Source: Sulfobacillus acidophilus DSM 10332 (lineage in GTDB: Bacteria > Bacillota > Sulfobacillia > Sulfobacillales > Sulfobacillaceae). Taken from it: 64,000 bases of DNA. Below are positions 42,440-63,789 of the stretch, in pieces. Under the pieces are notes generated by a model that was not told the DNA's origin, searched no databases, and saw only the letters and a list, made by a program, of their open reading frames with translations. The stretch spans positions 1 to 64,000 of the forward strand of contig CP003179.1 in NCBI GenBank assembly GCA_000237975.1, given 5' to 3'. The first letter of the stretch is position 1. Every line of letters begins with the position of its first letter. The translations under genes were made by a program, and so were the position numbers.

Positions 42440-42760
42440 GTGATTTACAATAAATTGGTCCGCGACCGGATTCCCGAGATTATCGAGAACGCAGGAAAAA
42501 GCTGCCGGGTGCGTACGCTCGACACCGAAGAATTTGTCGTGCGGCTTCGGGAGAAGCTCGACGAGGAAATCGCCGAATACCGTCGGGCCGAAGCGTCCGC
42601 GGAAGCAATAGAAGAGCTGGCCGATATTTTGGAAGTCATTTATCACTTGGCCGAGGTTCACGGCGCTACCGTGGAGGAATTGGAAGCCGTACGCATCCGT
42701 AAACGCGATAAACGGGGCGGATTTGGACAACGGCTCTTTCTCATTGAGGCCGATGAATAA
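42440..42760 (+). CDS. MazG-like all-alpha NTP pyrophosphohydrolase-type protein
   Basis: A 106-residue protein of the MazG/HisE superfamily. It opens with YNKLVRDRIPEIIENAG, the usual start of the predicted house-cleaning group. The metal-binding helices read EKLDEEIAEY and IEELADILEVI (ExxE then ExxxD), and RIRKRDKRGGFGQRLFL ends it. It should hydrolyse aberrant or alarmone-type nucleotides. The GTG start at 42440 is chosen from the family start. It overlaps the helicase gene by 8 bp, so the two are translated together. Confidence 0.82.
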   Translation: MIYNKLVRDRIPEIIENAGKSCRVRTLDTEEFVVRLREKLDEEIAEYRRAEASAEAIEELADILEVIYHLAEVHGATVEELEAVRIRKRDKRGGFGQRLFLIEADE

Positions 42761-45164
42761 CCCACGCTTAATCACCCGCCATCTCGGGACGCTGGTCAAC
42801 CGCCTGTCCGCCGACGCCAAAGGAATTTATCTGTTGCTGGCGTTTGTCCGGACGTCCGGCGTGGACGAAATCTTTCCGGCTTTGTCTGCCGCCGTCCAGG
42901 CCGGGGCCGACCTCAAAATCCTGACCGGCGATTATCTTTGGATTACCGAACCGGAGGCGCTCGCCCGGTTATTGACGTTGGGGCCGCAGGTCGAAATTCG
43001 GTTATGGTACACCGATGGCCAAGCGTTTCACCCGAAGGCCTTTTTGTTTGAATCCGAAACGACGCTTCACGTGATTATCGGGTCGTCCAATTTGTCTCGG
43101 AGCGCCGTGACGACCGGAGTGGAATGGAATGTACTGGTCGAAGACGCCGTGTTTGAACAAGACGATCCGGTCACCGAGTTTATGCGGCTCTTTTATGCCG
43201 AACAAACCGGTCCGGTTAACCCGGTGACGATTGAAGAGTACCAGCGCCGGCGGGACAGGTTTTACCGGGATCATCCGGCCGTGGAACGCGTGTGGGCGGA
43301 TTCGGTCTCCTGGTCCGGTGAGGCACCGGTGGATCTTTCCGAGACGGAGAGGGGTTCGGCCTCCGAGGAACTAGCGTTGCGGCCGGTTCAAATAGAGGCT
43401 TTCGAGGCACTGTCCAACGCTCTTCAACAAGGATACCGGCGGGGGCTGGTGGTGCTGCCGACCGGTCTCGGGAAAACCTATTTGGCCGCTTTTTTTGCCC
43501 GCCAATTTCGGCGAGTCCTCTTCATCGCCCATCGGGACGAGATTTTACGGCAGGCGGCTCGCACGTTTCACCGGGTATTACCGGACCGATCGCTCGCCTT
43601 TTATACCGGGTCCCAAAAAGGCGCAGCGGATATGGTGTTCGCCTCGGTATTCACCTTGGCCGGCAAACGACATCGGGAGCGGTTTTTACCCGATACCTTC
43701 GACTTGGTGGTTGTCGACGAGTTCCATCATGCGGCGGCCAAATCCTACGAGGCGCTGTTAGATTACTTTACCCCGCGGTTTTTGCTGGGGCTGACCGCGA
43801 CGCCGGAACGGATGGACAATAAAGACGTTTATGCGCTTTGTGACGGGAATCTGGTTTATCAAGAGAAGTTACCGGACGCCATTCGAAAGAAATGGCTGGT
43901 ACCGTTTCATTATTACGGCGTCTATGACCCGATCGATTATCGTACCATTCCTTGGCGTGGAACCCATTATGACGAAGAGGCGCTGGAACGAGTACAGACT
44001 CAAGAATCTTACGCTGCATGGATATTAGCCGGATGGCAAAACCACCGTCAGTCGCGGACATTGGCATTTTGTGCCGGGGTGACCCAAGCCGAATATCTGG
44101 CCGCTTATTTTTCCCGGCACGGTGTGGCTGCTCGGGCATTGACGGGGAAAAACACCCTGGATGAACGGCGCCGGGCACTGGCGGAGCTGGAACACGGTGA
44201 TTTGTCGATTATATTTTCCGTCGATCTTTTTAATGAAGGCCTCGATATTCCCAGTACAGACACCATTTTACTGGTGCGCCCGACCGATTCCTCGGTCGTC
44301 TTCCTCCAACAAATAGGCCGGGGGCTTCGGACGTTCGGCGAGAAAACGCATTGCACAATTATCGACTTTGTCGGCAACTACCGCAATGCCGACGAGCGGT
44401 TCGCCGTGCTCGGAGTTGCCGAACCGTTGGCCGCCTTGCAGGCCGGTACGGACGATATGGCGGTTATCACCCGGGGATTGCCGCCGAATTGCTTTATCGC
44501 GTTGGACCTTCAGGTGATTGACGTTTTGCAGAAGATCGAAAAACGCCGGTCATCCCCTGAGATGCTCGCGATTAAAGCCCTTAAGGCCCTTAAAGAGGAG
44601 GTGGGCCGACGGCCGACCTACTTGGAGTTTCATTTGAAAAGCGGGGTGGACGGCAAGCTGGTAAAAGACTGGTTCAAATCCTACCCGGGATTTTTGGCCG
44701 CGGCGGAGGAGCTCAATTCGTTCGAAACCGCCGTCTATGAGAAAGCCCGGGGCTGGCTTGAGGTGGTGGAAAAAACCTCCATGAGCCAGAGTTATAAAAT
44801 GGTGTTGCTGCGTACCATGCTCGACCGGGGACCGGATCGGTGGGACGAACCCGTTACCCCGCGCGAGCTGGCTCCCGGATTTTATGCCTATTTGCACGAT
44901 AACGGGCTTTGGATGAGGGAGACACAACGGCAAACGACATTTCGGGACCGCTATGAGGAAAAAGCCGTGGTTAACATCCTGGTCAAAAATCCTGTCAAAT
45001 TCTTATCAGAGCGGCATCCCGAATCTTTTTCTTATATGGATGGCCTGTTTCGTATCCGTCATGGCGGCATTACGGCCGAGGAACGGACATTGATCGCCCG
45101 GTGGACCCGCGAAATTGTGGAATATCGCTTGCATCGATACTTTTATCGGGATCAGGCTTATTAA
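42753..45164 (+). CDS. PLD-nuclease-like/SF2 helicase fusion protein
   Basis: An 803-residue protein. Residues ~20-150 form a phospholipase-D-like domain with FHPKAFLF (HxK near residue 91) and GSSNLSRSAV. The SF2 helicase core follows: Walker A PTGLGKT (~235), DEFHH (~321), LTATPE (~346) and motif VI QQIGRGLRTFG (~518). The C-terminal ~250 residues begin LPPNCFIALDLQVIDVL and resemble the DUF3427 region of such helicases. PLD-helicase fusions are suspected nucleic-acid processing or defence proteins. ATG 42753 overlaps the MazG stop. Confidence 0.85.
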   Translation: MNNPRLITRHLGTLVNRLSADAKGIYLLLAFVRTSGVDEIFPALSAAVQAGADLKILTGDYLWITEPEALARLLTLGPQVEIRLWYTDGQAFHPKAFLFESETTLHVIIGSSNLSRSAVTTGVEWNVLVEDAVFEQDDPVTEFMRLFYAEQTGPVNPVTIEEYQRRRDRFYRDHPAVERVWADSVSWSGEAPVDLSETERGSASEELALRPVQIEAFEALSNALQQGYRRGLVVLPTGLGKTYLAAFFARQFRRVLFIAHRDEILRQAARTFHRVLPDRSLAFYTGSQKGAADMVFASVFTLAGKRHRERFLPDTFDLVVVDEFHHAAAKSYEALLDYFTPRFLLGLTATPERMDNKDVYALCDGNLVYQEKLPDAIRKKWLVPFHYYGVYDPIDYRTIPWRGTHYDEEALERVQTQESYAAWILAGWQNHRQSRTLAFCAGVTQAEYLAAYFSRHGVAARALTGKNTLDERRRALAELEHGDLSIIFSVDLFNEGLDIPSTDTILLVRPTDSSVVFLQQIGRGLRTFGEKTHCTIIDFVGNYRNADERFAVLGVAEPLAALQAGTDDMAVITRGLPPNCFIALDLQVIDVLQKIEKRRSSPEMLAIKALKALKEEVGRRPTYLEFHLKSGVDGKLVKDWFKSYPGFLAAAEELNSFETAVYEKARGWLEVVEKTSMSQSYKMVLLRTMLDRGPDRWDEPVTPRELAPGFYAYLHDNGLWMRETQRQTTFRDRYEEKAVVNILVKNPVKFLSERHPESFSYMDGLFRIRHGGITAEERTLIARWTREIVEYRLHRYFYRDQAY

Positions 45165-54407: not shown

Positions 54408-57134
54408 CTAAATGACCGGATCGGACGGTCCCCGTCCCAGGGCCCGTTCCAACAGTTCTTGTTGAAGGTCGAGATGCCGGGACGGGATCACGACGGCGTT
54501 GGCCAGCCCCTGCTTGTCTTCCAACAAGCGGTCCAAAATCTCGTCAACCGTGCCCTGGGCGGTAATGCGCGGGTCTTGATCAACTACTAGCGGGTAGTAG
54601 ACCGAAACCGGACGGGTTTGCCCGATGCGGTGCACACGGTCGGTCGCTTGGTTTTCCACTGCCGGGTTCCACCACCGGGAATAATGAATCACGTGGTTGG
54701 CGCCGGTCAGGGTCAAACCGACGCCGCCGGCTTGCGGGGTCAAGATCATCACCTGAAACCCGGAAGCCTGGTTGAAATGATGGACCAGCTGCTGCCGCGC
54801 CGTCACATCCCCGTTGATCACATAGGGAGTCAGGTTAAATTCCCGCATGATCCAAAACTGTAGCATCGCTTGCAACGTCCGTGACGGGGTAAAGATCAGG
54901 GCTTTTTCCGACTGTCCGTGAATGGTGTGCAAAATTTCCAACGTCTTGGCCAGTTTGGGGATAGACGACACCGGAATCCGGTTCCATGGCGCCGACCGCC
55001 CCTCAACGGCCAAAGGATGCCCCAAAATGTTTTGTAATTGTCGAAGCGCCGGAAGTGGGGCCACCTGTCGTGCTTTGACTGCTTTGAGCACCTCTTGGTA
55101 ACGGTGCTGTTGTTCCGGGCCGAACGGGACGTGAAAACGATAAGCCGTTTTGGGCGGCAAGGCCAAACCGGATTCCTTCTTAGTCCGTCGGCGGTAGATC
55201 GGCGATATCGCGCGGGTAAGGGCTCCTTGGATATCCGGATCGGGGTTTTTCGTGGCGGTTTCGTAGGTTTGGCGGAACTCTCGTAGACTCCCTAACAATC
55301 CGGGTTGCACGAAGTCCACTATAGACCACAGGTCACTGAGGCTATTTTCCACCGGGGTGCCGGTTAGGGCTACACGATATGTGTTTTTGAGGGCTTTGAC
55401 GGCTTCGGCGCGTCCCGTGGAGACGTTTTTGATCAGTTGGGCTTCATCGAGGACAATGGCGTTCCAGTCAACCTGTCCGAGTATGAGCTGATCCCGTGAG
55501 ACCGTTTCATAGGAGGTGAGAATGACATCGGCATCCGGTAGGTGATCGATCTGGCGCGCCCGGTGCGGACCGTAATGGGCTGCCCAGGAAATCTTGGGGG
55601 CGAATTTGGTCAGTTCTTCCTGCCAATTGGACAATAAGGCGACCGGAGCCACTACCAGGCTCGGCCGGAGACGGCTCCGCTCATGGAGTATCGCGAACCA
55701 GGCAATGACCTGGACGGTTTTGCCGAGGCCCATCTCATCGGCCAGCAAGACGCCCCGCCGGTGGGCCGCCCGATGCCAAAGGAACCGAACTCCGTCCCGC
55801 TGATGGGGATGCAATGACGCCTGAAACCAGGCGGGAGGCTCTACGTCCTCGTTGGGGTCGGTCCAAATCCACGGATGAAACGGCGGATTGAATTCGACCT
55901 GTTCAAGATTGGTGAAGATGTCCAGGACGTATGGTAACCGCTCCCGTGACACCGGTTCTGTCGACCGGTTCCGAAGGGCAGACAGTTGTTGCAATGCCGT
56001 CCGAGCGGCCGGCGGTACTTCGATCCAGTCGTTGCCGAGCGGAATCAGGGATTCGTCCGGCCCGACGTGTTGAATGGCGGACAACAATTCGTCCGGTGTG
56101 AGCACCGGTTCGGCGGGGGGCTCGTCTTCGGGGGACTCCAGCCGGACACCCGCGTCGAGTGTGAACCAGCCGCGTTCGGTTTCGGTTGCATGCAAAAACG
56201 GTTGCGCGCGGTAGACTCGGATTTTAAGGCCTTTGACTCGTTCGGAAAATGCCGTCAAATCGAGAGTAACATCTTCCGGTAAGAAAGCCTCGGGATTTTT
56301 AACGAACTTAGGGACATCCTGTCCGGTTATCGGCGGCAAGGCATCGAGGCGCCGGAATTGCCGGCGCGCCTCCGGCCTGGCAATCCAGCGTTTTCGGCCG
56401 AGACCGGTCGACGGTCGGGACAGCGTGCCTTCACGTAAAGCCTCCGACGGCAGGTCGGGATGGTCATAGCGGGCCCTCAAACGAATGGTTCCGTTATCCA
56501 ACACCGGGTCGACGGTGACTTGGTCGACCAAAATATACTCTTCCCGTTCTAAATAGGGATCCAGGCGGGCGCCGGCGTCCTTGGCCAGCTGTTTAACCTC
56601 TGCGAGAAATAGCGTGCGGCCGTCGATGTCCGGGCCGGGTGCGGTCAAGAGGCGGTCAAGGAGGCGAGCCGACGCGCCGGTCAAAGTCACCGGCCCCCGC
56701 GCGGTTTCAAGCCAAGGACCGATGCGCCGTCCCCATTGCAACAAGTTTCCCGCATAGGGCGGTAGGGTCACCAGCGCCTCGATGTGAAACCGAGGTTCGG
56801 TTATAGCGCCGCGGGCCTTGAGACGGATGTCCGGAGCTTTCGGAGAGGGCAACTGAAATAGGGCCAAAAACGATTCCGGACTAGCCAAAAACCGCTCCCA
56901 GGACAGCAAATATTCACCGGGGCCCGTGCGGGTCAATTCGTCGTCTGCCCACCGTTGGTATAACGCCTCCAGTTGCGGCCACCGGGGGTCCGTTAATAAG
57001 GCGCGCGGGGATATCGAACCTTCGGTCCAAGGAAACTCGAGCGCTTCTCCCTGATAGGTGATTTGCCAGGACAGCCCTTCTAAGAGGGGCACAAAATTTA
57101 TGGTTATTACTGAACCGGTGACCGGCTTTTTCAT
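54408..57134 (-). CDS. zorD: Zorya antiphage protein ZorD (SNF2-type helicase)
   Basis: A 908-residue SNF2-family ATPase, the fourth gene of a type I Zorya operon. The N-terminal ~430 residues form an accessory region. The helicase core starts with LHPHQRDGVRFLW, Walker A LADEMGLGKTVQ (~466), Walker B LDEAQ (~565) and LTGTPVENSLSDLWSI. The C-terminal lobe has LTPQAGGVGLTLTGANHVIH and QATDRVHRIGQ (~831). In Zorya, ZorD is thought to act on invading DNA after ZorAB signals. It overlaps zorC by 4 bp. Alone it could be any SNF2 helicase; the operon decides the name. Confidence 0.9.
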   Translation of the reverse strand: MKKPVTGSVITINFVPLLEGLSWQITYQGEALEFPWTEGSISPRALLTDPRWPQLEALYQRWADDELTRTGPGEYLLSWERFLASPESFLALFQLPSPKAPDIRLKARGAITEPRFHIEALVTLPPYAGNLLQWGRRIGPWLETARGPVTLTGASARLLDRLLTAPGPDIDGRTLFLAEVKQLAKDAGARLDPYLEREEYILVDQVTVDPVLDNGTIRLRARYDHPDLPSEALREGTLSRPSTGLGRKRWIARPEARRQFRRLDALPPITGQDVPKFVKNPEAFLPEDVTLDLTAFSERVKGLKIRVYRAQPFLHATETERGWFTLDAGVRLESPEDEPPAEPVLTPDELLSAIQHVGPDESLIPLGNDWIEVPPAARTALQQLSALRNRSTEPVSRERLPYVLDIFTNLEQVEFNPPFHPWIWTDPNEDVEPPAWFQASLHPHQRDGVRFLWHRAAHRRGVLLADEMGLGKTVQVIAWFAILHERSRLRPSLVVAPVALLSNWQEELTKFAPKISWAAHYGPHRARQIDHLPDADVILTSYETVSRDQLILGQVDWNAIVLDEAQLIKNVSTGRAEAVKALKNTYRVALTGTPVENSLSDLWSIVDFVQPGLLGSLREFRQTYETATKNPDPDIQGALTRAISPIYRRRTKKESGLALPPKTAYRFHVPFGPEQQHRYQEVLKAVKARQVAPLPALRQLQNILGHPLAVEGRSAPWNRIPVSSIPKLAKTLEILHTIHGQSEKALIFTPSRTLQAMLQFWIMREFNLTPYVINGDVTARQQLVHHFNQASGFQVMILTPQAGGVGLTLTGANHVIHYSRWWNPAVENQATDRVHRIGQTRPVSVYYPLVVDQDPRITAQGTVDEILDRLLEDKQGLANAVVIPSRHLDLQQELLERALGRGPSDPVI

Positions 57135-58327
57135 CGGGCACCTCGATTTTTGGGAATTTGAATATATTGCGCCAAGTCATAGCTGAACGTTCCTTGCCAA
57201 TAGCCGGAATGGATCAGCCGTAACAAGGCTTGGTTGGAATCTTTCAAGTCGGTACTCTTGACCATGCGTTGACGGATCCGTTCGTAATCGGATTTTTGAT
57301 ATACGTAACAGGCATTGCCGGTTTGGGCAAACTCCACCGCCACCACATCACCGAAATCCAGAACCACCGCCGCCCTCGGGGTATCCTTTTCCAGAACGGT
57401 GACATGCAGGCATCGCTCGAGGTATCCGCGCCAAAACTGAAAGCGCGCATTATCTTGGTGAAAAAATTGCTGCAGCTTTGCTTGGTGAACCCAGTGAATC
57501 AGCTTCCGGCGTGCCTCGGCCGACAGGCCCGTCCACGGTCCGGAGGTGGTTTCCGGGTTGCCCCACCGTTGGATGAAACGGCGTAGCAAGGTCCCGTCAA
57601 AATTCATCCAGGAAAACACCGTCAGATATTGCGACAAGACGGCCTGAGCGCGTTCCCGCGCCCGTTGATCCAATTCCCAGAGCCATTCCGACCAGGGAAA
57701 CTCCGAGTCGGCCAGATGGCGTTCCCATTCCGGCAACGCACTACTCGTGAGAATTTGCGTGATGAGTTCATCGCTTAAGGGGTCACCCCAATGGAGCCCC
57801 ATCAGCGGAGTACCCGACCCGATGCCGTGGTCATCGAGAATCTTCGCCAATGGACCGAGGGGGGCCGACCGAGAAAAGGCCTTCATCAGGTCCATCCGGA
57901 AATTACCGTCCTGAACCGCGTCCCACCACGGGGTCACGCGGTGCTGGTTGACGTAGACGGACACTAATTTGACGAGTTCCGGATCGCGTGGCCATTTGAC
58001 GAAATGATCCCAAGCGACCCAGGCGGCTACCGGATCCGGATGGACCAATGCCACCGCCAGGATTTTAGGGCGGACCGGTTCGGGCAGTTGGGGGAAATGC
58101 ACCAAAAGCACATAGACGTCGACGGGTTCTAATCCTTCGGCCCATTGCCGAATCTGTACAACCGTGTCCAATGGGCCCAGCATTCGGAGCAAAGTGTCCA
58201 GCCGGGATTGGAACAGCATTCCCAGCCGTTGGCCTTTGGTTCGGTCGGTGGTGTATTCCTGTTCCAACGTTTCTCGCACCGCCCGCAGGCCGACCGGTTC
58301 AAAACGAAATCCGTGCGGGCGGCTCAT
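57131..58327 (-). CDS. zorC: Zorya antiphage protein ZorC (EH-signature family)
   Basis: A 398-residue soluble protein between ZorB and ZorD. It is helix-rich and contains WTGLSAEARRKLIHWVHQAK followed by ARFQFWRGYLERC, the EH-signature pattern that defines ZorC. Its C-terminal part (AAVVLDFGDVVAVEFAQTGN) may be a separate beta-rich module. ZorC is believed to bind DNA or relay the ZorAB signal. 4-bp overlaps at both ends show coupled translation. Identification rests on the motif and the neighbours. Confidence 0.85.
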   Translation of the reverse strand: MSRPHGFRFEPVGLRAVRETLEQEYTTDRTKGQRLGMLFQSRLDTLLRMLGPLDTVVQIRQWAEGLEPVDVYVLLVHFPQLPEPVRPKILAVALVHPDPVAAWVAWDHFVKWPRDPELVKLVSVYVNQHRVTPWWDAVQDGNFRMDLMKAFSRSAPLGPLAKILDDHGIGSGTPLMGLHWGDPLSDELITQILTSSALPEWERHLADSEFPWSEWLWELDQRARERAQAVLSQYLTVFSWMNFDGTLLRRFIQRWGNPETTSGPWTGLSAEARRKLIHWVHQAKLQQFFHQDNARFQFWRGYLERCLHVTVLEKDTPRAAVVLDFGDVVAVEFAQTGNACYVYQKSDYERIRQRMVKSTDLKDSNQALLRLIHSGYWQGTFSYDLAQYIQIPKNRGAR

Positions 58328-59013
58328 GGGGTTTTCACCGTCGATTGAATCGCCTGCATGATCTGGGTGTTTTTCAGTACAAAGGAGAACACCACCCGCC
58401 GCGAGGCGCGGGCGCTATACCGGCCGTCGATATAGACCGGGTCGTTGTACGATCGACCTTCGGCAGTAATGTACTGCTTTAAGAGATTCCGGTAGGGAAA
58501 GTTACCGAACTGTGGGCTGAAAATGGCGTCGACGACCGATAGGGCCCGCTCCTGCGACAGGTTCAGGTTATACAGATACGTTCCCTGGCGATCCGTATAC
58601 CCTTTGACCACGATGGTCGAAATGTCGTTTCGGTACCGTGGGCTAAGCAACACCGAGATATATTGGGGAATAAAGGCTTTGAGTCGGGCCTCCCCGGCCG
58701 GCGACAATTGATAGGAATTAAAAGAAAACAATACGTCACTGGCAAACTGGATATTACCGGTTTTCGGATCCAGCGTCATGCTTAAGTGGGACGCATGAAA
58801 CTGATGTTCCAGGGAGTGCACGATGGATGCCTGGACCCCGAGCAACTGGTTGATGCGGGCCTCTTTTTCTTGCAGGAGACGGTGATAGGTCATGACGCTG
58901 ACGGCCAAAAACAGGATAAACATCAATAAGAGGCCGGCCATCAGATCGGAATACATTATCCATTGATCGAATGGGGCCCGCTGGCCATAACTACGTGCCG
59001 GTGCGCGGTTCAT
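58324..59013 (-). CDS. zorB: Zorya antiphage protein ZorB (MotB/OmpA-like)
   Basis: A 229-residue membrane protein. One helix (residues ~24-42, LMAGLLLMFILFLAVSVM) is preceded by Asp23 in YSDLMAG, the position of the proton-binding Asp of MotB/ZorB stators. A linker leads to an OmpA-like peptidoglycan-binding domain with VVKGYTDRQGTYLYNLNLSQ and RALSVV. With ZorA it forms a proton-driven complex anchored to the cell wall. The anchor domain is intact although the host is inferred to be Gram-positive. Overlaps zorA and zorC by 4 bp each. Confidence 0.92.
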   Translation of the reverse strand: MNRAPARSYGQRAPFDQWIMYSDLMAGLLLMFILFLAVSVMTYHRLLQEKEARINQLLGVQASIVHSLEHQFHASHLSMTLDPKTGNIQFASDVLFSFNSYQLSPAGEARLKAFIPQYISVLLSPRYRNDISTIVVKGYTDRQGTYLYNLNLSQERALSVVDAIFSPQFGNFPYRNLLKQYITAEGRSYNDPVYIDGRYSARASRRVVFSFVLKNTQIMQAIQSTVKTP

Positions 59014-60953
59014 TCGGCCACCTCGTTTCGCTTATCCAATGCGGTATTCAAGACTTTCAGGTGTCGATTGATCCCGGTTACCTCGTGTGTCAGGGCTTCG
59101 CCCTGCGTTTTCAGGTGATTCACCGGTTGGCTTAGCGATTTAATCGCTTGTTCCAATACATGGACACCGCCGGACAGGTGGGTGACGGCCTGTCCAAGCT
59201 CTTTGTCAAATTGCGAGAAGGTATATTGCAGTCCCGCAGTTAAATTGGTTTGCAGTTGTTCCAGTGCTTCTCCCGCTTCTTTCCGTAATTGATGGGCGGC
59301 CTTGCCCAAGGCTTGCCCGACATCCTGAAATTGGGCGACCGTTTGCTGCAACTCGGTTTGGAATTGGGTTTGCAACGTTTGGGCCAGTTCGGTGAATTCG
59401 CGGGATTGCCGGGTCCAAAGGGCCGTAAGGTTTTCCAAATCACCGGCGACCCGGTCTTGCCATTGGGTCAAAGCCCGTTCGGTTTCTCGACTGACTTGGA
59501 GCGACGATTCCCGAAGGTCTTGCACTAACCGGGGGAAGTCGCCTAATGCCCGGCTAATTTGTTCTTCATAGGTTTTTTGCCACTCACCCAGGGCCGCTTG
59601 GCGGTCGGTCAGCAGTCGGAGATGTTCTTCCCATTGATTGTTGAGGGACTGTATGTGGTGTACCACCGAGCGAGACTCGGCAATAAAGGTTTCTTCCAAC
59701 GCCTGAAGATCCTTAAGGAGAGTTCCTGTGCGTAATTCCACGGCACTGAAGAACGCCTCTAATCGATGTTCGGTCGTTTCGAGCGTTCCCCGTATTTCGG
59801 TATGGAACGTACTCCAATATTGGGCCCCTTCGAGGAGAACGGTATGGACCTGGTGTCCTTGTTCCCATAGTTGTTTCTGCAGCTGTTGGGTTTCCTGGAA
59901 CCGAGCCAATAATGGTTCCGCATGCTGTAAGAGATCAGTCGCCAACGTTGCGATACGTTCTTGTACGGTGACCGTTTGTTGCAGGGATTCATGCAGTCGT
60001 TCGGCCACTTCGACCGTCTGAGCACTCATTTGGTTGATAAATTCATGGGCAATCCGTTCAAGTCCGTCAACTTGGGCGGTCGCGGTCCTTTCTGCCATGA
60101 GGGTCATCTGTTGGCCGAAATTATCCAATGATGCGGTCGTTTGATGTTGCTGCCGAATTAGTTCGTCGAGCGGAGGAAATAGCTGGGTTTGCAATGCCTG
60201 AGAAAATCCTTCGATTAATTGGGGAATTAAAGTATCTGTCGTCAACGTATAAAGGGTCTGCCGTTGATCCTCCAAGATATTTTTGATCTGTTGAAGGGAC
60301 AATTCCTCCGGCGGAGCGGAAAATCCCGCGATTAGCGCCTCTTGCAAGGCAACGACCGCCTCATACAACGATCGGTACCAAAACCGGTCGGCCACCATCC
60401 AGACTAAGGCCAAAAAGATCCCGTAAACGGAGGAGGTAAATTTCAAGCTCAGTCCGCCCACCAACTGGCCAATCCCCGCCCCCAATCCATTCGGGGCATT
60501 GGGGTTCAGTCCGTGTAATCCTGCCACCAAACCGAGAAAAGTCCCTAAAATTCCGGCCATGGTCAATAGGCTGGGAACCGCCTCGGTAATCCGGCGATTG
60601 GCGATGCCTAATAAAATGGCGTCTTCGGAGAAAAACCGTCCAATGTCGGGATGGACAGGATCCCCGTCTTGGTGGTGCTGAACGGCGTCCACATATTGTT
60701 GCCAGAGCGGACGGAGTTTGGCGTTCGGGTGATCGTGAAACCATTGATCAACGGTCGGCAGGGAGGTACCGTGTTCTTTCAGATAAGCGGTCAATTGGCG
60801 CATTTCGGACCGAATGCCGCCTTCCACGCGAATCCGCCAGACCAGGACGCCGCTGGTCAGGAATAAAAAAAGCCAAAGATATAAGGCCCCGAACCGATTG
60901 ATGCTACCGACCCAGGAAATCGCATAATAAATCCAGTTTCCGGGATTACCCAC
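59010..60953 (-). CDS. zorA: Zorya antiphage protein ZorA (MotA/ExbB-like with long tail)
   Basis: A 647-residue protein, first in the operon. One helix near residues 22-39 is followed by the MotA/TolQ/ExbB channel domain: AVPSLLTMAGILGTFLGLVA (125-144) and FTSSVYGIFLALVW (172-185). Thr138 and Ser174/175 lie where the ion-path residues of ZorA are expected. From ~200 to the end it is an almost unbroken helical tail of over 400 residues, the hallmark of ZorA, which projects into the cytoplasm and is thought to carry the infection signal. The GTG start follows a modest GAGGG site. Confidence 0.92.
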   Translation of the reverse strand: MGNPGNWIYYAISWVGSINRFGALYLWLFLFLTSGVLVWRIRVEGGIRSEMRQLTAYLKEHGTSLPTVDQWFHDHPNAKLRPLWQQYVDAVQHHQDGDPVHPDIGRFFSEDAILLGIANRRITEAVPSLLTMAGILGTFLGLVAGLHGLNPNAPNGLGAGIGQLVGGLSLKFTSSVYGIFLALVWMVADRFWYRSLYEAVVALQEALIAGFSAPPEELSLQQIKNILEDQRQTLYTLTTDTLIPQLIEGFSQALQTQLFPPLDELIRQQHQTTASLDNFGQQMTLMAERTATAQVDGLERIAHEFINQMSAQTVEVAERLHESLQQTVTVQERIATLATDLLQHAEPLLARFQETQQLQKQLWEQGHQVHTVLLEGAQYWSTFHTEIRGTLETTEHRLEAFFSAVELRTGTLLKDLQALEETFIAESRSVVHHIQSLNNQWEEHLRLLTDRQAALGEWQKTYEEQISRALGDFPRLVQDLRESSLQVSRETERALTQWQDRVAGDLENLTALWTRQSREFTELAQTLQTQFQTELQQTVAQFQDVGQALGKAAHQLRKEAGEALEQLQTNLTAGLQYTFSQFDKELGQAVTHLSGGVHVLEQAIKSLSQPVNHLKTQGEALTHEVTGINRHLKVLNTALDKRNEVAE

Positions 60954-61198: not shown

Positions 61199-61906
61199 AT
61201 GACGGGGGACGCGGAACGGTTGGCCGAATACATGGAGAGGACATTGCCGTTACGGGATCTTCGACTCGGCAACGAATATCGCTATGCCCATCTGGGGCTG
61301 GCCTTGGTGGATGCGGTGTTTTCGGTAGGGATTAAGTATACGACCACATCCCGCGTTGTCGCGCGATATGCTCGCTATCAACGGTTGACCCTATTTCGCC
61401 CGAACGAGACGGAATGGCCGTCCGTAAAAGATCAGGAACCGCTCGACGCGTTGGTGGCGTTGGGTGAGCGCTTGGGTCCGCAGCGGTTGGCCGACGAGGT
61501 GTTTCAAAATCGCAATCGTACGTCGTCTTCGGGCGGCATCTTGAAAGCGGAGGCGGTCATTCAAGCCGCTCGGGTCTTTACGGATCATGGTGTGCGCTAC
61601 TTTCAAGATTTGCCGAAGGCCGCCGCCAATTCGGCGGTGGAAGCGGCGTTCCGGGCGATTCCCGGTCAAGCCTCCGGGGTTAGCTGGGCCTATTTTTGGA
61701 TGTTGGCCGGTGACGATAACCTGATTAAACCCGATCGCCATGTCCTAACGTATTTGGAAACCGCGCTCGGGGGCCCAATAGGCTTGGAGCGGGCCTTGGC
61801 TGTTATTCGCGGGGCGGCAGCGTTGCTTCAGCCCGACTATCCCGCTGTGACGCCCCGTCGGCTCGATTATGCCATCTGGAATTATCAGCGCACACAAGGT
61901 CGGTGA
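61199..61906 (+). CDS. HhH-GPD-like hypothetical protein
   Basis: A 235-residue protein. The segment IPGQASGVSWAYFWMLAGDD then LIKPDRHVLTYLE looks like the helix-hairpin-helix plus Gly/Pro...Asp loop of DNA glycosylases (compare IPGVGxKTAxxxL...PVDTHV). A catalytic Lys in the hairpin is not evident, so it may be a glycosylase-fold protein without lyase activity. GGGGAGGGG precedes the ATG. It heads the rightward operon beside Zorya, so a role in DNA defence or repair is plausible but unproven. Confidence 0.6.
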   Translation: MTGDAERLAEYMERTLPLRDLRLGNEYRYAHLGLALVDAVFSVGIKYTTTSRVVARYARYQRLTLFRPNETEWPSVKDQEPLDALVALGERLGPQRLADEVFQNRNRTSSSGGILKAEAVIQAARVFTDHGVRYFQDLPKAAANSAVEAAFRAIPGQASGVSWAYFWMLAGDDNLIKPDRHVLTYLETALGGPIGLERALAVIRGAAALLQPDYPAVTPRRLDYAIWNYQRTQGR

Positions 61907-62251: not shown

Positions 62252-62677
62252 ATGGATAGGATGACCGCCGAATCACGCAGTCGGGTTATGGCCCGGGTCA
62301 AGAACAAAAATACCGCTCCGGAAATACTATTGCGAAAAACCCTCTATGCCGCCGGAGTGCGTGGTTGGCGTTGCCATAAAAGGGATTTGCCGGGAACGCC
62401 CGACATCGTGTTTACACGATGGAAGCTCGCGATTTTTGTCGACGGGGCATTTTGGCATGGCCATCCCAGTCATTATCGTCCTGGTCAAAGCGGGACTTTT
62501 TGGGACCGAAAGATTGAAAAGAACCGGCGCCGTGACGACGAGGTGAATCGTCTTCTTTCCCGTTTGGGCTATACGGTGATTCGCGTGTGGGATTTTGAAA
62601 TCGAAAAAGATCCTGCAGCGGTGGCCCGGAGAATCTCGGAGCGGTTACGGGAATTAAAGGGGACGGTATCCGAATGA
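62252..62677 (+). CDS. vsr: Very short patch repair endonuclease Vsr
   Basis: A 141-residue DNA mismatch endonuclease that nicks beside T:G mismatches arising from deamination of 5-methylcytosine. Conserved sequence: SRVMARVKNKNTAPEILLRK at the start, LPGTPDIVF with catalytic Asp51 (same number as in E. coli Vsr), and VDGAFWHGH with the zinc/active-site His residues. Cys41 and neighbouring residues may complete the zinc site. It overlaps the methyltransferase gene by 4 bp. ATG 62252 is used; ATG 62261 is an alternative. Confidence 0.93.
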   Translation: MDRMTAESRSRVMARVKNKNTAPEILLRKTLYAAGVRGWRCHKRDLPGTPDIVFTRWKLAIFVDGAFWHGHPSHYRPGQSGTFWDRKIEKNRRRDDEVNRLLSRLGYTVIRVWDFEIEKDPAAVARRISERLRELKGTVSE

Positions 62678-63789
62678 ACGGACTCGGGAACCGAAAAAAG
62701 CGGTATCGCTCCGAGGATTTGGTGGCCGTTGACCTTTTTGCGGGAGGCGGAGGCCTGACGCTCGGTTTGAAATTGGCCGGGTTTCGTGTTTTGGGCGCGG
62801 TCGAAATTGATGATTTGGCGGCAGAAACGTACCGGATGAATCACCCCGAGGTTGACATCGAACAACAAGACATCCGCCTATTGGATGCGGAGGAATTTCG
62901 TCGGACGTTGGGTCTCCGGAAAGGCCGGCTGGATCTCTTGGCGGGATGTCCTCCGTGTCAGGGGTTTTCCGCCTTGACGACCAAAAACGGGGCCAAGACG
63001 ATTGACGACCCGAGAAACTCCCTGGTACGCGAGTTCGTGCGATTTACCGACGAATTTAAGCCGAAAGTTATTATGCTGGAAAACGTGCCGGGGTTGGCGA
63101 ACGACCCGGGATTTCATGACGTCCTTCGGGAATTGGAGTCGTTGGGTTATACGGTGGAATTCCGCATATTGAATTCGGCAAAATTCGGGGTTCCCCAGAG
63201 AAGACGGCGATTGATTCTTTTAGCCGGATTATATGGCCCCGTACCGTTTGCGGAGGCGGCGGAGACACCGGAAATCACGGTTCGAGAAACTATCGGCATG
63301 TTGCCGGAACCCGGCGACAGCGGGGATCCTCTTCACGATTTGCCCGAAAAGCGGAGCGAACGGGTCCGGCGCATTATCCAAACGATCCCGTTGGATGGCG
63401 GCAGTCGTGCGGAGTTGCCGGAAGACCTGACCTTGGACTGTCACCGTCGCGGAAACGGGTTTAAGGACGTTTACGGACGAATGGCCTGGGATGCGGTGGC
63501 CCCGACGATTACGGGCGGTTGCGTGAATCCGAGCAAGGGCCGGTTCCTTCACCCGTCTCAACACCGAACCATTACGCTACGGGAAGCGGCGCTTTTACAG
63601 GGGTTTCCGCGCGATTACCGGTTTAGTCTCCGAAAGGGGAAATACGCCGCCGCGGTGGTCATCGGGAACGCGCTGCCTCCTGAATTTATCCGTCGGCATG
63701 CCGTTAAGGTAAAGCATTACATTCGTCGCCGATACCTACGAAAGACAACGGAATCGGGGAAGACTCCTCAAAATCTCCATATGACGTAA
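62674..63789 (+). CDS. C5-cytosine DNA methyltransferase
   Basis: A 371-residue type II methyltransferase. Motif I DLFAGGGGLTLGL, motif IV GCPPCQGFSA with catalytic Cys95, motif VI MLENVPG, motif VIII GVPQRRRRLI, motif IX PTITGG and motif X VVIGNALPPEF. The target-recognition region is short, so the site is probably 4-6 bp. No restriction endonuclease gene lies on the left; it could be the cut gene to the right or absent. Vsr repairs the mismatches this enzyme would cause. Confidence 0.94.
   Translation: MNGLGNRKKRYRSEDLVAVDLFAGGGGLTLGLKLAGFRVLGAVEIDDLAAETYRMNHPEVDIEQQDIRLLDAEEFRRTLGLRKGRLDLLAGCPPCQGFSALTTKNGAKTIDDPRNSLVREFVRFTDEFKPKVIMLENVPGLANDPGFHDVLRELESLGYTVEFRILNSAKFGVPQRRRRLILLAGLYGPVPFAEAAETPEITVRETIGMLPEPGDSGDPLHDLPEKRSERVRRIIQTIPLDGGSRAELPEDLTLDCHRRGNGFKDVYGRMAWDAVAPTITGGCVNPSKGRFLHPSQHRTITLREAALLQGFPRDYRFSLRKGKYAAAVVIGNALPPEFIRRHAVKVKHYIRRRYLRKTTESGKTPQNLHMT

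Follow-up and report, generated by a model that had tools for sequence, protein, structure and literature searches.

The window analysed here, a 64,000-nucleotide stretch of the Sulfobacillus acidophilus chromosome, contains a locus that we consider, with high confidence based on sequence comparisons and structural models, to be a complete type I Zorya operon that probably works against phages. Established here are its gene content, the family and fold of ZorA and ZorC, the family of ZorB and ZorD, the conservation of the key residues, the patchy distribution of the operon, its defence-island setting, and the acid-type surface of the outer part of ZorB. Four intact open reading frames, zorA-zorB-zorC-zorD, occupy positions 54408-60953 of the minus strand, exactly where an earlier note on this DNA had placed four minus-strand genes; the coordinates and the 4-bp overlaps at all three junctions, each reading ATGA, were verified. 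The features are as follows:

59010..60953, minus strand: zorA, 647 aa, GTG start; MotA/ExbB-type stator subunit with a core (~1-213) and a helical tail of ~420 residues
59010..59013, minus strand: zorA/zorB junction, ATGA, 4-bp overlap
58324..59013, minus strand: zorB, 229 aa; one membrane helix with D23 and an OmpA-like peptidoglycan-binding domain
58327..58761, minus strand: outer OmpA-like domain of ZorB (residues 85-229), 6.2% Asp+Glu
58324..58327, minus strand: zorB/zorC junction, ATGA, 4-bp overlap
57131..58327, minus strand: zorC, 398 aa; EH-signature protein
57131..57134, minus strand: zorC/zorD junction, ATGA, 4-bp overlap
54408..57134, minus strand: zorD, 908 aa; SNF2 helicase with an N-terminal ZorD-type half

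A ribosome-binding-like sequence (GAGGG) was found 5' of the zorA GTG codon. Promoter scans upstream of the operon and terminator scans gave nothing better than chance.

All four products were recognized by PADLOC HMMs (ZorA1, 4.7e-35; ZorB1, 2.4e-82; ZorC1, 1.3e-15; ZorD1, 1092 bits), and the Pfam families MotA_ExbB, OmpA, EH_Signature, and SNF2/Helicase_C were detected above their curated cut-offs. The adjacency of zorA, zorB, zorC, and zorD in one operon is that of type I Zorya, an assignment made earlier from gene order and with which both the HMMs and the solved structures agreed. The strict equivalog cut-offs of NCBIfam for ZorA1, B1, C, and D, which NCBI set for close relatives (E. coli-like ZorA1/B1/C/D), were not reached by the window proteins; the operon is therefore type I Zorya of another branch. 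This branch was already present in the 2023 PADLOC library, as PDLC00609 (ZorB1, 274 bits) and PDLC00633 (ZorD1, 1092 bits, over residues 8-902) matched from end to end, with no difference found. Types II and III were rejected, since no zorE, zorF, or zorG lies beside zorAB, the neighbours being ZorC, ZorD, a DsrE-like gene, and an unassigned ORF.

ZorA exhibits a MotA/ExbB core, with a Pfam match above the cut-off, followed by a long cytoplasmic helical tail. The earlier figure of more than 400 tail residues was borne out: the tail comprises ~420 residues, almost all of them helical in the model, arranged as three long helices (216-340, 348-470, and 477-646). The pLDDT was mostly 75-89 in the core and low in the tail, whose modelled arrangement is of low confidence. 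When the PDB was searched by sequence, type I ZorA came first, and the model gave the same ranking, with type I ZorA entries at Z 14.6-15.9, ExbB/TolQ next at ~12 (ExbB 12.2), and flagellar MotA/PomA at ~7.

ZorB combines an OmpA-like peptidoglycan-binding domain (Pfam, E 2.9e-11) with a single membrane helix bearing the ion-binding Asp. Its best PDB match was E. coli ZorB (8QYD_F, 3.3e-14), in which D26 corresponds to D23, and this residue was invariant in all of the ZorBs compared (101/101). Grouping with flagellar or Tol stators had been named beforehand as an outcome that would speak against Zorya. In a ZorB tree that took in five flagellar MotBs, these, including that of the host, split off at 100/100. 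The window sequence and three members of its family formed a clade at 100/100, itself inside a group of 14 Gram-positive type I rows (97/89); the Gram-negative type I and type II rows had long branches, and their exact placement is unsure. Based on the separation of ZorB from MotB and on the ranking of the ZorA fold over ExbB/TolQ and MotA, a flagellar or Tol/Exb stator was ruled out.

ZorC, for which the absence of an EH-signature fold had been considered the other danger to the assignment, carries the EH-signature domain (Pfam EH_Signature, 53.2 bits for a cut-off of 27.5) and the ZorC fold. Its pairwise similarity to PDB sequences was weak (phmmer 0.078), but the relationship was clear by Pfam, by fold, and as a profile (8.3e-16 against PDB 8R68). 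The ZorC model (pLDDT 86.8) had one significant Foldseek match, which was 8R68, and superposed on it with Z 13.8 (rmsd 4.9, 311 residues); the second-ranked entry had Z 6.8. ZorD is an SNF2-type helicase of the ZorD branch (Pfam SNF2, E 2.4e-62, plus Helicase_C) with intact ATPase motifs: Walker A GLGKT (469-473) and Walker B DEAQ (563-566). As a profile it placed E. coli ZorD (8QY7) clearly first among PDB entries (3.8e-181 versus 1.1e-136), and in a single-sequence search 1Z63, an archaeal SNF2/Rad54 helicase, was slightly ahead of 8QY7. A Pfam search of ZorD identified no separate nuclease domain. Two ZorD homologues of ~1150 aa (L046:4437-7877 and L095) have an extra C-terminal domain beyond the 908 aa of the window protein, which is possibly an added nuclease domain.

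Loss-of-function sites in E. coli reportedly include ZorA T147/S184, ZorC E400/H443, and ZorD D730/E731, as described by Doron in 2018. Mapped through a plasmid copy from E. coli (L147), they correspond to ZorA T138/S175, ZorC E332/H373, and ZorD D563/E564, and D26 of ZorB to D23. The mapped residues, ZorC E332 and H373 among them, were all kept in the window and invariant in all 23 operons aligned. The comparison of channel residues suggested earlier thus gave a match for ZorA T138 and S175 and ZorB D23 with E. coli T147, S184, and D26. In Serratia Zorya, the ZorB Asp (D24) is essential (PMC11890865).

The host genome consists of molecules of 3,472,898 bp and 84,933 bp (3,557,831 bp in total) with five 16S genes. 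S. acidophilus NAL has one chromosome and one plasmid, a total of 3,557,831 bp, and five 16S copies; it is Gram-positive and grows at pH 1.6-2.3, with an optimum of 1.8 (PMC3558970). The supposition of a Sulfobacillus-type, acidophilic Gram-positive host was therefore correct. A flagellar cluster with motA/motB is present at G000:C1:3104999-3111778 (L053); the strain has been described as non-motile, and flagella were not observed (PMC3558970).

In Bacillota, we found ~22 non-redundant loci with four sizeable zor genes; of 23 loci compared, one (L090) has a doubtful ZorD. Complete ABCD operons were present in three other genomes of the window's family, in four from other families of the class, and in more genomes of the phylum, including the cultured Paraliobacillus sp. 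PM-2, Alkalihalobacillus deserti, Halobacillus salinus, Clostridium sp. Cult1, Clostridium sp. BSD9I1, and Bacillus sp. ISL-41. Thermoanaerobacter wiegelii, Thermoanaerobacterium saccharolyticum, and Natroniella acetigena have ABCD with one gene split as assembled. The split genes (L117, L059, L063, and L124) were ZorD in T. wiegelii (L117), ZorB in a Tissierellia MAG, and ZorA in N. acetigena and T. saccharolyticum; they reflect either decay or assembly error. The earlier remark that most Zorya loci described are Gram-negative holds for the genus lists in the literature, which are mainly so (PMC11890865), but finding Zorya I in a Gram-positive is nothing unusual. With ~22 ABCD loci in the phylum and PADLOC models from 2023 covering its branch, the S. 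acidophilus Zorya is not exotic by lineage.

These loci also bear on whether the operon might be a housekeeping ZorAB-type stator that lies by chance beside an unrelated SNF2 gene and has no defence function. ZorAB pairs with no effector genes are widespread in Bacillota, and the PADLOC model that recognizes the window ZorB recognizes theirs too, so ZorA and ZorB matches alone prove nothing. In the window, however, zorC and zorD are both present, overlap, and belong to the right families; since the same order and the same four families recur in ~22 loci, the four-gene arrangement is not due to chance. Patchiness within the family and the defence genes nearby also oppose a housekeeping role, which we consider extremely improbable.

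Lone ZorA/ZorB-like pairs, with neither zorC, zorD, nor zorE, were observed in a set of mostly halo/alkaliphilic Bacilli (L067-L072, L077, L080, L089, L094, L099, L101, L106, L109, L115, L120, L127, L129, and L132), as well as in Lachnospiraceae (L076, L082, L092, L108, and others). They scored 253-265 bits with PADLOC ZorB1, and their neighbourhoods looked housekeeping and differed between species. These pairs possibly correspond to a conserved, non-defence ZorAB-type stator that is a source of false Zorya calls. The ZorB HMM match was rejected as a count of Zorya systems, because the effector-less pairs match the same model: 234 of the 398 genomes had a ZorB match at a lax cut-off, a number that cannot be read as Zorya carriers since flagellar MotBs and lone pairs match too.

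Zorya was found in 4 of the 34 genomes of the window's family, in surroundings unlike each other, with BREX genes adjoining it in two of the relatives. In S. acidophilus, the defence island includes a Vsr and cytosine methylase pair adjacent to the operon, and Hma-like, GajB-like, and TmtA-like genes are located within the next 20 kb past the window. This patchy spread, the unlike surroundings, and the defence neighbours are what is usually seen for defence genes that move as a set.

Other genes were observed around the operon. Just upstream of and divergent from it, genes for a Vsr mismatch endonuclease and a C5 cytosine methylase overlap by 4 bp (62252-63789, plus strand). For the 235-aa ORF between zorA and vsr (61199-61906, plus strand), searches of Pfam, NCBIfam, PADLOC, and the PDB sequences all came back empty. 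Further away in the window, a PLD-type nuclease is fused to a ResIII helicase (42723-45164, plus strand); PADLOC assigns it to the type IV methyl-directed restriction enzymes, and an HNH-associated repeat occurs near its end. Just beyond the window (L052:3921-13285; G000:C1 ~67.9-77.3 kb), an HmaC/DUF499-like ATPase, an HmaB/DUF1156-like methylase, and a PLD-type SNF2 helicase are encoded in a row and make up a putative defence cluster, either Hma-like or of the DUF499-DUF1156 kind. After them comes the gene for a TmtA/MkoA-like sacsin/AAA helicase protein of 1585 aa.

The outer domain of ZorB differed from those of other genomes in its composition. Its Asp+Glu content (6.2%, residues 85-229) ranked lowest among 101 ZorBs, and its three relatives in the family came second to fourth (7.6-9.0%), for a lowest value of 10.7% outside the family and a median of 17.9%; as these four low-acidic rows form one clade, they amount to one evolutionary observation, not four. 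The domain is basic, with a pI of 9.7, whereas the outer ZorB domains of halo/alkaliphile Bacillota are acidic (pI ~4.5). MotB of the host is likewise depleted in acidic residues (3.9%). The acidic content of the cytoplasmic parts, i.e. ZorC, ZorD, and the ZorA tail, was on the low side and overlapped that of other genomes. Judging from this composition, the outer domain of the S. acidophilus ZorB looks adapted to pH 2.

The operon might also be a decayed or silent copy, retained by chance in the island; the upstream promoter scan, no better than chance, would fit such a state, as would the broken genes of other Bacillota copies (e.g. the split ZorD of L117). However, the four frames and their overlaps are intact and the key residues are all kept. 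Moreover, the acidic depletion that the outer part of ZorB shares with the host MotB suggests selection while exposed to low pH. We thus consider decay or silence improbable and retain the reading of a probably working operon.

ZorB was also more conserved than the other proteins. Among family members its identity was 71-75%, for 32-40% in ZorC and 46-49% in ZorD; between the window and L037, the values were 71% for ZorB, 34% for the ZorA tail, 32% for ZorC, and 48% for ZorD. A special Sulfobacillus event was ruled out, because in most pairs of Bacillota operons it is ZorB that has changed least. Across all the ABCD loci compared, the ZorA tail, ZorC, and ZorD of Bacillota Zorya I have diverged much faster than ZorB.

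The predicted ion site of ZorA is lined by T138, S174, and S175, which align with T158, T185, and T186 of PomA, the three Na+-coordinating threonines; H+ stators have Ala at the first two of these positions (PMC10374538). Position 174 was Ser or Thr in 90 of the 93 ZorAs; the three exceptions, with Gly, Val, or Ile, were the Gram-negative type I copies in the comparison. The triad of the host flagellar MotA is Thr/Ala/Thr. Position 20 of ZorB, equivalent to PomB T21, a ligand in Na+ site 1 (PMC10374538), was Ser in 91/101 ZorBs and Met only in the window's four-genome family. The term "proton-driven" used earlier for this stator is thus not established: the three hydroxyls of ZorA match those of Na+ stators, while ZorB M20 does not supply the Na+-site hydroxyl.

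The Zorya motor could instead be Na+-driven, by analogy with the type I ZorAB of Shewanella, in which Na+ is bound (PMC11890865), and the large outside proton gradient would then be irrelevant to it. The equivalence of ZorA T138, S174, and S175 to the PomA triad is consistent with this, as is the Ala that the host flagellar MotA has at the S174 position, like H+ stators. On the other hand, the PomB T21 equivalent is Met in the ZorBs of this family only, and E. coli ZorAB has been described as proton-driven (PMC12904381). Thr also occupies the S174 position in an E. coli type II ZorA, so this residue alone does not decide the coupling ion. In addition, the membrane potential of acidophiles is often positive on the inside (PMC5772234), and Na+ would then be hindered from entering; a Na+ current in S. 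acidophilus would therefore run against the electrical term. Overall, the S174 triad leans to Na+, and Met20 and the energetics of the host lean to H+; we consider Na+ drive possible but doubtful.

ZorA also carries Q86/D89 in place of E86/E89, the Ca2+-site pair of E. coli according to the title of PDB 8QYH. These glutamates were not conserved across the 23 Gram-positive operons and were partly kept in Gram-negative ones; they were therefore not treated as defining type I. A more speculative and rather unlikely proposal is that the Sulfobacillus Zorya motor has been re-tuned for pH 2, with an acid-stripped outer ZorB, Met in place of the Na+-site hydroxyl, and no Ca2+ site, and that it would either draw on the pH part of the proton gradient or have been selected to let none of it leak through at rest.

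Compared with E. coli type I Zorya (8QYD for ZorAB, 8R68 for ZorC, and 8QY7 for ZorD), the S. acidophilus operon has the same gene order and families, as well as common ion-site, EH, and Walker B residues. It differs in the length of ZorC (398 versus 560 aa) and ZorD (908 versus 1082 aa); in ZorA S174 for Gly183 and Q86/D89 for E86/E89; in ZorB M20 for Ser; and in its Gram-positive host living at pH ~2. The type I ZorAB of Shewanella sp. ANA-3 (8VVN) is alike in its ZorA core fold (Z 14.6) and shares with S. acidophilus the polar residue that precedes the conserved Ser in the Na+-bound structure. It is set apart from the latter by the Gram-positive envelope, the low-acidic outer domain, and the Met at ZorB position 20. 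Other Bacillota type I operons (A. deserti, H. salinus, Paraliobacillus, Clostridium sp. Cult1, and others) are complete ABCD sets, several of which fall in the same ZorB clade. By kind, the S. acidophilus locus is an ordinary one, from a defence family already catalogued; what is unusual is its physiological setting.

In the Zorya systems studied, envelope damage leads ZorB to grip peptidoglycan, ZorA5B2 opens and turns, and the tail recruits ZorC and ZorD, after which DNA is attacked (PMC11890865; PMC12904381). Judging from the predicted proteins, every part needed by this mechanism is present in S. acidophilus. By analogy with E. coli, Serratia, and Shewanella, the motor would be a rotary, ion-driven assembly of five ZorA and two ZorB subunits seated in the cytoplasmic membrane. 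Perturbation of the envelope by a phage would anchor ZorB to peptidoglycan, and ion flow past ZorB D23 and ZorA T138/S175 would turn or reshape the long ZorA tail. The tail would in turn recruit ZorC, the EH-signature protein, and ZorD, an SNF2 motor for which nuclease activity has been reported, and the two may attack the entering DNA. The trigger proposed for Gram-negatives is geometric, the wall being pushed towards the membrane. As Gram-positives have a thick wall and no outer membrane, we infer that such a trigger needs checking.

Type I Zorya is thus known and also occurs in other Gram-positives; what is specific here is the low-acidic ZorB, Met20 at the Na+-site position, and the Ca2+-site glutamates that are not conserved in Gram-positive relatives. 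The trigger and the coupling ion of Zorya have so far been studied in Gram-negatives, which have an outer membrane and near-neutral surroundings. The S. acidophilus copy, if working, would operate in a Gram-positive cell at pH ~1.8, with its sensor domain bathed in acid. It would thereby separate two questions that are hard to part in E. coli: whether sensing requires an outer membrane enclosing a periplasm, and which part of the gradient, pH or electrical, drives the motor. ZorA S174, ZorB M20, and ZorA Q86/D89 provide concrete positions for swaps.
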